A DNA stretch of 64,000 nucleotides. Source: Candidatus Treponema merdequi. Its GTDB lineage: Bacteria > Spirochaetota > Spirochaetia > Treponematales > Treponemataceae. Below are positions 25,868-29,724 of the stretch, in pieces. Below the pieces are notes generated by a model. It made no database searches. It had not been told where the DNA came from and was given only the letters and a program-made list of their open reading frames with translations. How positions within the stretch are numbered: the first letter of the stretch is position 1; each line of letters begins with the position of its first letter. The position numbers and the translations under genes were made by a program. The stretch covers positions 1 to 64,000 of the forward strand of contig JAGHVB010000033.1 of NCBI GenBank assembly GCA_018064525.1. The letters are read 5' to 3'.

Positions 25868-26206
25868 CTATTTTCCAAGACGTTTTCTGACTTCTGCATC
25901 AATTCCCTGGTCAATCTTATCAAGATCAATTCCCATAAGTTTAAGACATCTTGTTCTCAGATTGAAAGTTGCCATATCATTTGCGATATATGCATCCATT
26001 CTTTCCTGCATTAAAGACTGAATGTTCAATGCTTTTCTTGAAGGCATCTTTGGCGTAAACTTATCAACGTAATGAATAATAATATCAGCCAAAGTCTTTC
26101 CAATTTCTGCATACGCACCTGCAGGAAGTGCAAATCCGGCAGAAACTTTTTCAAGCATTTCATCATCAAGTTTTACAACTTCTGTCTGTTTAACTGCATT
26201 ACTCAT
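25868..26206 (-). CDS. Small protein with a double-glycine-type leader
   Basis: 112 residues. The first 24 end in LDDEMLEKVSAG, which follows the class II bacteriocin leader pattern (L at -12, L at -7, V at -4, Ala-Gly at -2/-1). The predicted mature part of 88 residues starts FALPAGAY and is helical and basic, with little likeness to its two neighbours. Family unknown; it could be another exported peptide or an immunity or accessory protein. The start at 26206 is fixed by AAGGAGG just upstream. It is the third gene of the operon and is followed by a terminator. Confidence 0.8.
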   Translation of the reverse strand: MSNAVKQTEVVKLDDEMLEKVSAGFALPAGAYAEIGKTLADIIIHYVDKFTPKMPSRKALNIQSLMQERMDAYIANDMATFNLRTRCLKLMGIDLDKIDQGIDAEVRKRLGK

Positions 26207-26219
26207 ATTCACACCTCCT

Positions 26220-26555
26220 TTATTCATTGCAATACTGCAAACAGTTTCTAGCAAGGCTTGTAACTCTTTCGCCGCTTGAAAGATTGATATATGTTACCAT
26301 TCTTTCTGTATATTTTATGAAAAGAAATCTGTGAGGTTCTTCCCATACTTTTTCTACCATAACTTTTGACCAGTGATTACTTGTATGTGCACACTCGAAA
26401 GTAAAATCATTTCTCCAGTAAACCTGTCCTACCTGTAATTTATACTGATTTACGAAACCTCCGCAGCTGTCTGGAACATAATTATAACGTCCCTCATTTT
26501 TTCCGCCTGATATTGTATCAAGTTCTTTTTCATTAAGAATCATTGCTGTATTCAT
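26220..26555 (-). CDS. Double-glycine leader protein (bacteriocin-like), paralogue 1
   Basis: 111 residues. An 18-residue leader ends in LNEKELDTISGG, a near-perfect match to the double-glycine leaders (LSxxELxxIxGG) cut by C39-peptidase ABC exporters. The mature part would have 93 residues with four Cys and many aromatic residues. It is a paralogue of the gene at 26570-26881: both share a GG-x-V-x-QY segment, VGQ/PGQ followed by YW/YY, a central W with alternating hydrophobic residues, and four Cys. AAGGAGG precedes the start. Activity unknown. Confidence 0.85.
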   Translation of the reverse strand: MNTAMILNEKELDTISGGKNEGRYNYVPDSCGGFVNQYKLQVGQVYWRNDFTFECAHTSNHWSKVMVEKVWEEPHRFLFIKYTERMVTYINLSSGERVTSLARNCLQYCNE

Positions 26556-26569
26556 AATCTGCCTCCTTA

Positions 26570-26881
26570 TTATCGCTTAATGCTGTAAATAAGATTTTTC
26601 TTATTTATTGGAGATGAACATGGCTGTCCAGTTCCACAAACAATATAATCAGCTGTACGAATCGTGCAGTGATGCCATAAAATCCAGCCGTTATCAGCTT
26701 CATAAACTCTTGTTATTTTGATTTTAATCCACTGATCATAACCGCCTGATGTATAATGCATGTAATATTCCTGTCCAGGCTTTACATCGTACTGACCTAC
26801 ACAACCGCCTACGTCAGAAGGCTTACCGCCTCCGCATATATTTTCAAGTTCAAATTCATTCAATAAAAGTGCTTCACTCAT
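26570..26881 (-). CDS. Double-glycine leader protein (bacteriocin-like), paralogue 2
   Basis: 103 residues. An 18-residue leader ends in LNEFELENICGG, with the same length and spacing as its downstream paralogue. The 85-residue mature part is rich in Gly, Tyr, Trp and Ile and has four Cys, so disulfides are possible after export. The start at 26881 is chosen for AAGGAGG 6 bases upstream. It is the first gene of a three-gene operon with its own promoter. No ABC exporter, C39 peptidase or modification enzyme is in the window, so the exporter must be elsewhere if it exists. Confidence 0.85.
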   Translation of the reverse strand: MSEALLLNEFELENICGGGKPSDVGGCVGQYDVKPGQEYYMHYTSGGYDQWIKIKITRVYEADNGWILWHHCTIRTADYIVCGTGQPCSSPINKKNLIYSIKR

Positions 26882-26919
26882 ATAAGCCTCCTTGCAGAAC
26901 ATCATCTGCCTTACACCTA

Positions 26920-26991: not shown

Positions 26992-28767
26992 CTATTCCCA
27001 TTCGACATCGACGCTGCGATGTTCAATATCAGGAATCCTTTTGTAAATGCGGCAGTCTTTTTTATGAACTGTAATTCCACGACCGCGGGAAACATAGCCG
27101 ACAATTTCATCCGGAAACTTTGGACAGCAGCATCCAGCAATCGTCATTACAAAATTTGAAGTATTTCCGACTTTTATTTTTCCAGAATGTTCAATGTGAG
27201 GCGCAGTGCGTTTTCTTTTTCCAGGCTTGTGAGCATGCTGTTCTTTTGGAGTTTCATCTTCTTCTGTTTTTTGAATTTCTGTTTTTGATGGAACTTGTTT
27301 AGCCTGCTCCGTTTTGTTTGCATTTAACCACGCATTGATTTTCTGTTTCGCTCTGTAAGTTACGACATACTGAAGCTGATTTTCTGTCGGATGATTCTGC
27401 GGGTTTGTGATGATTTCTATTATTTGAGTATTTTCAAGTGGAACTGATAAAGGAATGATTTTCCCGTCAGCTTTAGCAGCAGCGATTGTTTCTCCGATTC
27501 TCGAATGAATTGCATAAGCAAAATCGACTGCAGTTGCACCTTCAGGCAGCTGAATGATGTCACCATTTGGAGTAAATACAACAATTTTATCTTTTAGAAG
27601 TTCGTTTTTAAATTCTGCAAAAAGAGTTTCGTCTGTGAGATGTTCATCTTTAAGTTCCTGAAGCTGATTAACAATTGAAAGATTTTTTACATCGACAATA
27701 TCATTTGTCATTCCCTTTTTATAGAGCCAGTGACTTGCAACACCGTGTTCTGCAACATGATGCATTTCATTTGTACGAATCTGAATCTCAAGCGGTTTCC
27801 CTTCTGCCATTACAGTTGTATGAAGAGACTGATATCCGTTTGCTTTTGGCATTGCGATATAATCTTTAAATCTTCCTTCAAGAGGTTTCCAGAGCTGATG
27901 AACAATTCCTAAGAGTGTATAACATTCTGCATTCGTATTACAGAGAATACGGACTGCAAGAAGATCATAAAGTTCACCAGCCTCTTTGTTTCGCTTTTTC
28001 ATCTTCTGATAAATGGAATAGAAATGTTTTGCGCGGGCTGTAACTGTGATTTCGATGCCTGCTTTTAACGCTGCTTTATAAAGTGACTGCTTTGTTTTTT
28101 CAAGATAATCACTTCTTTCATCTTTTTTCTGAGAAACGATTGCTTTTATCTGCTGGTAAACATCAGGATTAAGATATTTTAAACTTAAATCTTCAAGTTC
28201 ATTCTTACCCTGCTTTATACCAAGTCTGTCTGCAAGAGGTGCCCAAATATCAAGTATTTCCTGACTTGCTGCTTTCTGATATTCTTCTGATTTTCCTTTT
28301 AAGTAACGCATGTAATCAATTCGCTCTGCAAGACGGATTAAAATAACGCGCATATCATCAGTCAATGCAAAGAACATATTTCTTACGGCATTTGCCTGAC
28401 TTTGAGTCTTTGCATTAACATGGACATTTGAAATTTTAAATTCCATTTGAACAAGTTTTAATATTTCTTCTCCGAAAAGACTTTTAATTTCTTCTTCTGT
28501 GACATTTTCGAATGAGAGGATATTATGCAGAAGCGCCGTAATGATTGAATCGCGGTCAGGAGAATATTCTGCGACAATCAATGAGACACGGTATGGATGT
28601 AAATAATACGGTGTCCCGCCGTCGTGAGTTTTATCTTTTGTTTTTTCTAGAAGAAAATTCCATGCAGAAATAATTTTCTGTTTGTCGTTCTCATCAAAGT
28701 ATTCAAACTTTTTGAAAAAATCTTCGATGAGAACTTGTGGATTTTCTGTAAAAACTTCCTGCTGCAT
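26992..28767 (-). CDS. RelA/SpoT-family (p)ppGpp synthetase with degenerate hydrolase domain
   Basis: A 591-residue protein. The N-terminal HD domain is degraded: where active enzymes have LLHDVVEDT this one has LLHNILSFE, and the usual LADRLHNMRT reads LAERIDYMRY. The synthetase domain looks intact (LYDLLAVRI, RFKDYIAMPKANGYQSLHT, EIQIRTNEMHHVAEHGVASHW). A TGS domain follows (VFTPNGDII to about residue 440), then a basic linker and a zinc-finger-like end with CCCPKFPDEIVGY. The ACT domain is missing; typical Rel proteins have about 730 residues. It probably makes but does not degrade the alarmone. Upstream CAGGA is a weak ribosome binding site. Confidence 0.9.
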   Translation of the reverse strand: MQQEVFTENPQVLIEDFFKKFEYFDENDKQKIISAWNFLLEKTKDKTHDGGTPYYLHPYRVSLIVAEYSPDRDSIITALLHNILSFENVTEEEIKSLFGEEILKLVQMEFKISNVHVNAKTQSQANAVRNMFFALTDDMRVILIRLAERIDYMRYLKGKSEEYQKAASQEILDIWAPLADRLGIKQGKNELEDLSLKYLNPDVYQQIKAIVSQKKDERSDYLEKTKQSLYKAALKAGIEITVTARAKHFYSIYQKMKKRNKEAGELYDLLAVRILCNTNAECYTLLGIVHQLWKPLEGRFKDYIAMPKANGYQSLHTTVMAEGKPLEIQIRTNEMHHVAEHGVASHWLYKKGMTNDIVDVKNLSIVNQLQELKDEHLTDETLFAEFKNELLKDKIVVFTPNGDIIQLPEGATAVDFAYAIHSRIGETIAAAKADGKIIPLSVPLENTQIIEIITNPQNHPTENQLQYVVTYRAKQKINAWLNANKTEQAKQVPSKTEIQKTEEDETPKEQHAHKPGKRKRTAPHIEHSGKIKVGNTSNFVMTIAGCCCPKFPDEIVGYVSRGRGITVHKKDCRIYKRIPDIEHRSVDVEWE

Positions 28768-28833: not shown

Positions 28834-29724
28834 TTATTTCTTCAATTTGTTGAAAAGTTTTCTCAAGAGTCCGATCTTTCCAAAGAGAAGCCAGAAAAGA
28901 ACTGCTGCGATAGCAAGAATTGGAACTCCGAATACGATAAGGTAACAGATGAACATAAGCAATCCGGCAAAGAAATTGAGGATGGCTGAAGCGAAGTCCA
29001 GAAACTTTTCTTTCATGTCAGGCTTAATAAATCCTGTTGATGATGATGTATTATTTGGAAGTGTAAAATTAATTGTTATTGTCGAATAATTAATCTGATT
29101 ATCAAGATACTTCATTCTTCCTTCTGCCCTGTCAATTTCATACTGAACGTTATTGAGCTGCTTTTCAACTTCAAGAAGTTCCTTTACATCTTTTGCCTGT
29201 TTAAGATAGCCCTGATATTTTTCACGAAGAATCTTTTTTGTTTCAAGACGGGCCTGAGTATCATAGTATTCTTCAGTAACGTCACGTGCATTAATACTCT
29301 TTGAAACTATTTTTCCGAAGTCTCCGATTGAAGTAAGAACTTCATCAAATTTTCCTTGAGGAATTCTGATTTCATAATAGCAATTGTATTCTCCGTTTGT
29401 TGAAGATGAAATATAGCCATTATATTTATTTACAAGTGAATTAACTTTGTTATCAATTCCGTCAAATTTTTCAACCTGAATATTTACATTTGATGTTCTG
29501 ATAAGTTTTCTGTCTGTAATTTCTTTTCCAGAATCAGGTGACTTGGATTTAAGAACTACTTCCGATTCATTCATTACTTGCTCATCAAATTCTAAACATA
29601 CAGCATCTTCACACAATGTCATATTTTTGGATGATGCTGATCTTGGCAATTCATTTTTTGCTCCGCATGAAGAAACTGCACACATCAAAGCTACAGCTGC
29701 AAGAACATAAATCGCTTTTTTCAT
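28834..29724 (-). CDS. DUF4349-type membrane lipoprotein
   Basis: A 296-residue protein with lipobox AVSSC (Cys 20). Residues about 75-225 match the DUF4349 pattern: a beta-rich start (KLIRTSNVNIQVEKFD), an Asn-Gly-Tyr-Ile motif, a coiled-coil section rich in Lys, Glu and Leu, and INYSTITINFTLP. A membrane segment and a short basic tail follow. Function is not established for the family. AAGGAG precedes the start. A promoter about 60 bases upstream gives a longer leader than usual here. rel follows 66 bases later. Confidence 0.85.
   Translation of the reverse strand: MKKAIYVLAAVALMCAVSSCGAKNELPRSASSKNMTLCEDAVCLEFDEQVMNESEVVLKSKSPDSGKEITDRKLIRTSNVNIQVEKFDGIDNKVNSLVNKYNGYISSSTNGEYNCYYEIRIPQGKFDEVLTSIGDFGKIVSKSINARDVTEEYYDTQARLETKKILREKYQGYLKQAKDVKELLEVEKQLNNVQYEIDRAEGRMKYLDNQINYSTITINFTLPNNTSSSTGFIKPDMKEKFLDFASAILNFFAGLLMFICYLIVFGVPILAIAAVLFWLLFGKIGLLRKLFNKLKK

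Follow-up and report, generated by a model that had tools for sequence, protein, structure and literature searches.

A long Rel of Treponema with a degenerate hydrolase site and no ACT domain, and a candidate small alarmone hydrolase beside valS

Introduction

Long RelA/SpoT homologues (RSHs) that are hydrolase-dead and work beside a separate hydrolase are a known kind, of which RelA/SpoT is the example. In gammaproteobacterial RelA (E. coli, 5iqr) an inactive HD domain stands beside an intact synthetase, and hydrolysis is left to another protein. This pseudo-HD domain modulates synthesis in E. coli, according to a passage of PMC8012599, and the synthetase domain of gammaproteobacterial RelA carries an EXDD motif (passage in PMC3153485). 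The ACT/RRM domain of long RSHs is described in part of PMC7058999 as near-universal; the same source reports that RRM/ACT deletion is toxic in E. coli RelA and B. subtilis Rel, with (p)ppGpp overproduced via misregulated ribosome activation.

Among Spirochaetes, a passage of PMC3153485 (Atkinson 2011) lists mainly Rel, with T. denticola as the case that has small enzymes only. In the portion of PMC10434055 drawn on here, T. denticola is described as having no bifunctional long RSH, and long RSHs are said to be apparently present elsewhere in Treponema, with T. pallidum, T. putidum and T. pedis as exceptions. Its ActSpo2 hydrolase TDE1690 (205 aa, His73-Asp74, crystal structure solved) hydrolyses (pp)pGpp and (p)ppApp in a Mn-dependent manner, and activity is undetectable in D74A (same portion). 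No prior description of a hydrolase-dead treponemal long Rel was found in the open-licence literature as covered by titles, abstract openings and passages.

The rel gene of the window

The window is the whole stretch of 64,000 nucleotides that was analysed, and rel lies on its reverse strand. Site numbers follow B. subtilis Rel (6yxa); the alignment is free of gaps here, and the site number is the query number minus 4. The gene and its parts are:

26992..28767 (-), rel gene, an open frame for a long RSH of 591 aa, hydrolase-degenerate and without ACT
26992-26994 (-), stop codon of rel
28198..28701 (-), HD (pseudo-hydrolase) domain, residues 23-190, a fold predicted with good confidence
28597..28599 (-), H57, the kept metal ligand H53 (alignment)
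28510..28527 (-), H81-N82-I83-L84-S85-F86 in place of H77-D78-x-x-E81-D82 (alignment)
28312..28332 (-), L146-A147-E148-R149-I150-D151-Y152 in place of LADRLHN, with D144->E and N148->Y (alignment)
27673..28185 (-), synthetase domain, residues 195-365, RFKD (RXKD-type) motif intact
27406..27585 (-), TGS domain, residues 395-454 (Pfam)
27187..27399 (-), expected place of the AH region, residues 457-527, mostly predicted disordered and with no AH_RIS match
26995..27186 (-), zinc-finger-like C-terminal part, residues 528-591 (CCCP...H...C; alignment)

Its sequence marks the product as a long RelA/SpoT homologue in which the synthetase site is intact, the hydrolase residues are altered, and a TGS domain and a zinc-finger-like C-terminus follow. 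Pfam places HD_4 (35-184), RelA_SpoT (245-352) and TGS (395-454) above cut-off and in the order of a long RSH, and TIGR00691 is matched at 552.3 bits (cut-off 499.2). The C-terminus, where no Pfam model matches, aligns with the zinc-finger/CC part of ribosome-bound RelA (residues 536-590 to 8fr8, domain E 1e-4; 524-590 to 5iqr, 3e-7). In a PDB search the closest solved sequence is bifunctional Rel 6yxa (E 5e-112), not RelA. An AlphaFold2 model (mean pLDDT 73, pTM 0.52) has a confident HD domain and predicted disorder between TGS and zinc finger (pLDDT <50 at 486-526). The structures that resemble it come from Rel, RelA, SpoT and small alarmone hydrolases (SAHs): 6yxa (Z 37.3, rmsd 9.7, 422 aligned), 7oiw (Z 36.3, rmsd 2.3, 324 aligned) and, for the HD part, 7qod (Z 17.4, rmsd 3.2, 170 aligned) and 7p1y (Z 17.1, rmsd 3.0, 167 aligned). 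A shortfall of about 140 residues from the usual Rel had been noted by the sequence-only reading, and it agrees with 591 aa vs 744 for the E. coli RelA chain 5iqr and 715 for the Rel open frame of order member G045.

Hydrolase and synthetase sites

We take H53, H77, D78 and D144 to be metal ligands, E81/D82 the catalytic pair and N148 a pocket residue. Against 6yxa the changes are R44->H48, K45->D49, D78->N82, E81->S85, D82->F86, D144->E148, H147->D151 and N148->Y152; H53 (H57) and H77 (H81) are kept. Two of these seven hydrolase residues (H53, H77, D78, E81, D82, D144, N148) are thus present, and the set of a bifunctional Rel is incomplete. The sequence-only reading had seen HN for the HD pair, SFE where ED should follow and LAERIDY for LADRLHN, and the 6yxa alignment bears out each of them (D78N; E81S and D82F; D144E, H147D and N148Y). 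It was also right that the synthetase motifs are intact: RAKH, the D of the DLL motif, RFKDY, and the E and Q of EIQIRT are identical in 97/97 aligned Rels, this one among them. The EXDD motif was not found in these Rels, all 97 of which have RFKD. Because metal ligand D78, the catalytic E81/D82 and pocket residue N148 are gone, this Rel would be unable to hydrolyse (p)ppGpp, and we infer from its residues that it has no hydrolase activity of its own. The nearest relative (93%) has the identical N/S/F/E/Y set; together with the degenerate site across the genus set described below, this means that the changes are neither chance nor local error.

How does this Rel compare with the described systems? 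It shares with E. coli RelA the D144->E change (LAERI in E. coli). Unlike RelA, it keeps H53 and H77 (R and F in E. coli, as read from the alignment), has RFKD (RXKD) where RelA has EXDD, is without ACT/RRM, and its partner is a putative small hydrolase rather than SpoT. With bifunctional Rel (B. subtilis 6yxa, S. equisimilis 1vj7) it shares the HD-SYN-TGS order and the RXKD motif, but hydrolase residues and ACT are lost and the AH region has no Pfam match and is predicted disordered. The source genome also resembles T. denticola, for which part of PMC10434055 describes SAS-TPR (TDE1711) and the ActSpo2 SAH (TDE1690): it encodes a SAS with TPRs and a SAH homologue. T. denticola has no long Rel, whereas the source genome keeps one, apparently synthesis-only, as a third component.

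Rel across the genus and order

Relatives were searched for in 59 genomes including the source genome (54 with a match) and in 200 Treponema genomes. The alignment holds 97 Rels, 20 from the same order and 77 from the genus; these 77 are the best-scoring from the 200 genomes, a sample that favours well-matching domains. One genus Rel (L083) is incomplete at the hydrolase site, hence 76 are readable there. None of the 76 keeps all seven hydrolase residues. D78 is found in 1/76, D82 in 0/76 and N148 in 0/77 (Arg in 72/77); H53 and H77 are present in 76/76, and D144 in 73/77, with E in the other four, the window Rel among them. E81 adjoins an alignment gap, and its count (E in 24/76) is not relied on. 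In the order, all seven residues are kept in 3/20 (G036, G045, G053). Of two further groups of eight rows, one (f3) keeps HD, has the E81-D82 pair in none and N148->Ser in all; the other (f4) has HH or HQ instead of HD.

A tree built from the synthetase-TGS part of 22 genus and 20 order rows, all from Treponematales, recovers the genus as one clade (100/100), joined with the intact-site G036 (97/91). The degenerate state also occurs in the named strains Ca. T. scatequi (the nearest, 92-93%), T. saccharophilum DSM 2985 and two T. socranskii, and the complete genome of T. ruminis RU1 has a Rel in the same state as that of the window. Residue patterns thus indicate that hydrolase-site loss is common to the whole genus and is not special to the source genome; gut and oral treponemes probably have a Rel able only to make (p)ppGpp.

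ACT and AH regions

The sequence-only reading was correct in finding no ACT domain: Pfam gives none in the window Rel, in which only 19 residues follow the last Cys of the zinc finger. Tails past the zinc finger are 19-55 residues long in 72/72 readable genus Rels (of 77 rows) vs 99-105 residues in 20/20 order Rels. With tails of only 19-55 residues, these 72 genus Rels have no room for ACT. ACT families (Pfam) match 0/17 genus Rels with whole C-termini and 11/20 order Rels; an ACT count on 24 proteins, which gave none, was set aside as a genus test because 23 of the rows end where the match to the window Rel ends. RelA_AH_RIS (Pfam) has no match in the window Rel. It matches 2/17 genus Rels and 6/20 order Rels, and genus-wide complete loss of the AH region is rejected on account of those two.

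A candidate hydrolase beside valS

Which protein might then clear the (p)ppGpp? The source genome (G000; 2.70 Mb, 87 contigs, 99.77% complete) has a single match to Pfam HD_4 at E up to 1e-3, the window Rel itself. Searching at E up to 10 with a profile built from five treponemal SAHs of the Mesh1-like kind gives one further match (E 0.04, G000:C10), a 216-aa HD protein at L121:1318-1968 (+) with intact FRHQ, HDTVED and CADRISN motifs. Its ORF immediately follows valS (NCBIfam valine--tRNA ligase, E 1e-98), and it scores 22.2 bits against Pfam HD_4, below the 27.2 cut-off. The best PDB match is 7p1y (phmmer E 1.3e-77, residues 29-211), followed by SpoT 7qps (1.8e-6) and then SpoT 7qpr and Lmo0812 4yf1 (3.8e-5). 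The 7p1y entry bears the title 'A small alarmone hydrolase TdActApo2 mutant - T78N'; its chain has 232 residues, with the HD pair at 100-101 and an Asn four places past the Asp (alignment count). As the HD position fits a 27-residue tag and the Asn position fits T78N, 7p1y would be the T. denticola enzyme TDE1690. A separate hydrolase had been predicted to exist elsewhere, and a genome search for another one had been proposed; that search led to this homologue of the T. denticola (pp)pGpp hydrolase, a SAH candidate with all catalytic motifs present. The motifs and homology make it very likely that the L121 protein clears (p)ppGpp in the source organism.

SAHs of the L121 type are found in 187/200 genus genomes, a count that includes the weak matches of G143 (1.2e-8) and G164 (4.6e-5) and is 185 without them, and in 84/85 good genus genomes (completeness >=90%, contamination <=5%; the exception is G014). 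In other families of the order they occur in 21/23 genomes (22/24 with the source genome), no match being seen in G036 and G043. The former has an intact Rel site and a genome 83% complete; the latter, without a detected SAH, has a partly degraded Rel site. Absence in G043 and G014 could be due to assembly gaps. Eight genomes in one or two contigs (G060, G063, G065, G066, G067, G069, G071, G222) have the L121-type SAH in 8/8 and no Mesh1-like SAH seen. Motifs are conserved, with HDTVED and CADRISN in 30/30 genus rows and HDxxED and ADRIxN in 22/22 order rows. The SAH also co-occurs with intact-site Rels (G045, G053) and is thus not confined to genomes with the loss.

The valS -> SAH neighbourhood is itself conserved (L121:124-1968 in the source genome), and the SAH is possibly co-expressed with the tRNA synthetase. 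Order-wide, the SAH is preceded within 1 kb by a valS match in the same orientation in 47/52 loci. Of the five exceptions, three show no valS in the roughly 1.45 kb ahead of the SAH, one has just 2 bases of sequence there, and one is a second copy (G052).

Other alarmone enzymes and neighbours of rel

Two synthetase domains were found in the source genome, one in the window Rel and one in a 424-aa SAS with TPRs (L118:2351-3622). Order genomes without a detected Rel (G039, G042, G056) have one synthetase domain, in frames of 414-446 aa, and a SAH of the L121 type, like T. denticola. Mesh1-like SAHs occur in 27/200 genus genomes (best match 5.5e-43 or stronger, the four profile-source genomes counted) and in about 13/85 good ones (read from a rounded table); the profile search found none in the source genome. 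A Mesh1-like SAH as general replacement is rejected, given its presence in only 27/200 and absence from the source genome. Fusions are also seen. In G035 (L113:3-1778) an intact Mesh1-like hydrolase domain is fused behind HAMP and a SpoIIE-type phosphatase, possibly a signal-controlled hydrolase; in G002 (L115:223-1695) and G004 (L117:1507-2979) an APH-type phosphotransferase domain is joined with an intact HD_4 hydrolase domain, and other Mesh1-like matches include open frames of comparable length (about 450-524 aa).

Downstream of rel, at 25868-26905 (-), three small ORFs of 128, 111 and 111 aa stand in a row. They start with double-glycine-like leaders (LNEKELDTISGG, LNEFELENICGGG, LDDEMLEKVSAG) and have no Pfam match; the middle one scores 14.6 bits against the TIGR01847 bacteriocin signal, just below the 15.7 cut-off. 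Directly upstream of rel is a DUF4349 lipoprotein-like gene (28834-29724, -).

Discussion

The reading preferred here, with a probability of roughly 0.85, is that this long Rel lacks ACT, can only synthesise, differs from proteobacterial RelA and would leave its product to be cleared in trans by an older small hydrolase. An RXKD-type, ACT-less Rel paired with ActSpo2 appears to be new.

Is the HD domain still under selection? Mean pairwise identity is 0.547 for HD vs 0.752 for SYN, and dN/dS in a single pair, the two closest genomes (G000 vs G007), is 0.123 for HD, 0.049 for SYN and 0.043 for TGS. These values are what a domain simply decaying without function might give, a reading we find improbable: a dN/dS of 0.12 in that pair is still low, 18/168 HD columns, H53 and H77 among them, show no variation across the genus set, and the fold is predicted with good confidence. 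By these comparisons the HD domain is less constrained than the synthetase yet still selected, as expected of a regulatory pseudo-hydrolase.

A tentative idea, which we regard as doubtful, is that two lesions otherwise made in the laboratory coincide naturally genus-wide, loss of the hydrolase site and of ACT/RRM, and that the pocket has been remodelled, perhaps into a metal or alarmone sensor that replaces ACT as a check on the synthetase. The pattern behind it is the two invariant His ligands, the nearly invariant Asp144 and Arg at N148 in 72/77. A remodelled HD pocket and strong in-trans hydrolysis are both candidates for how treponemal Rel might avoid the toxicity of ACT-less enzymes.

The same residues bear on whether Rel is still bifunctional, its HD site working with an altered metal site and altered catalytic residues (H53, H77, D144/E, N/S at 78). 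Three metal ligands persist in most members: within the genus set H53 and H77 do not vary and D144 hardly does, against a far lower domain median of 0.67, and residual or different chemistry is possible. Against this stand the loss of D78, D82 and N148 in all members or all but one, with unrelated replacements, and the likely presence of a competent hydrolase in trans; the equivalent Asp mutation, D74A, left the T. denticola SAH without detectable activity (part of PMC10434055). Continued bifunctionality is therefore judged very improbable. Least credible is that another enzyme (Nudix or Mesh1-type) clears the alarmone and the valS-linked HD protein has a different substrate: this protein does occur with intact-site Rels (G045, G053), and some members of the genus have Mesh1-like small hydrolases, but these were found in 27/200 genomes and not in the source genome, and the valS-linked protein is an apparent orthologue of a measured (pp)pGpp hydrolase with all motifs kept.

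On the preferred reading, a synthesis-only Rel with clearing in trans, Rel would bind stalled ribosomes that have deacylated tRNA in the A site, via TGS and zinc finger, and starved ribosomes would thereby activate it to make (p)ppGpp. As in E. coli RelA, the inactive HD domain may stay folded beside the synthetase as its regulatory partner. The (p)ppGpp would be removed in trans by the small HD hydrolase adjoining valS (L121), the putative orthologue of the T. denticola enzyme. SAS-TPR would be a second alarmone source, and the small hydrolase may clear both products.

How might this arrangement have originated? The SAH is probably older than the loss of the Rel site, as it is present also where Rel is intact; for the same reason (G045, G053) its acquisition as a new, compensating enzyme is rejected. 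Likely the small hydrolase came first, the Rel hydrolase became dispensable and the site would then have decayed. If loss is irreversible, the residue states suggest three or more separate decays of the Rel site within the order as sampled (the genus, the f3+f4 clade and G048); parsimony with free reversal gives only two changes of Rel state.

A genus without any hydrolase, as suggested by the Pfam HD_4 search, is ruled out by the ActSpo2-type protein. As this hydrolase falls below the HD_4 cut-off, surveys that use that cut-off can wrongly call these genomes hydrolase-less. The Treponema arrangement also suggests a possible route by which T. denticola came to lack Rel: a small hydrolase and SAS at the outset, then decay of the Rel hydrolase, then loss of Rel. 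An ACT-less, apparently hydrolase-dead Rel throughout a genus would constitute a natural test of the roles of the ACT domain and the HD site.
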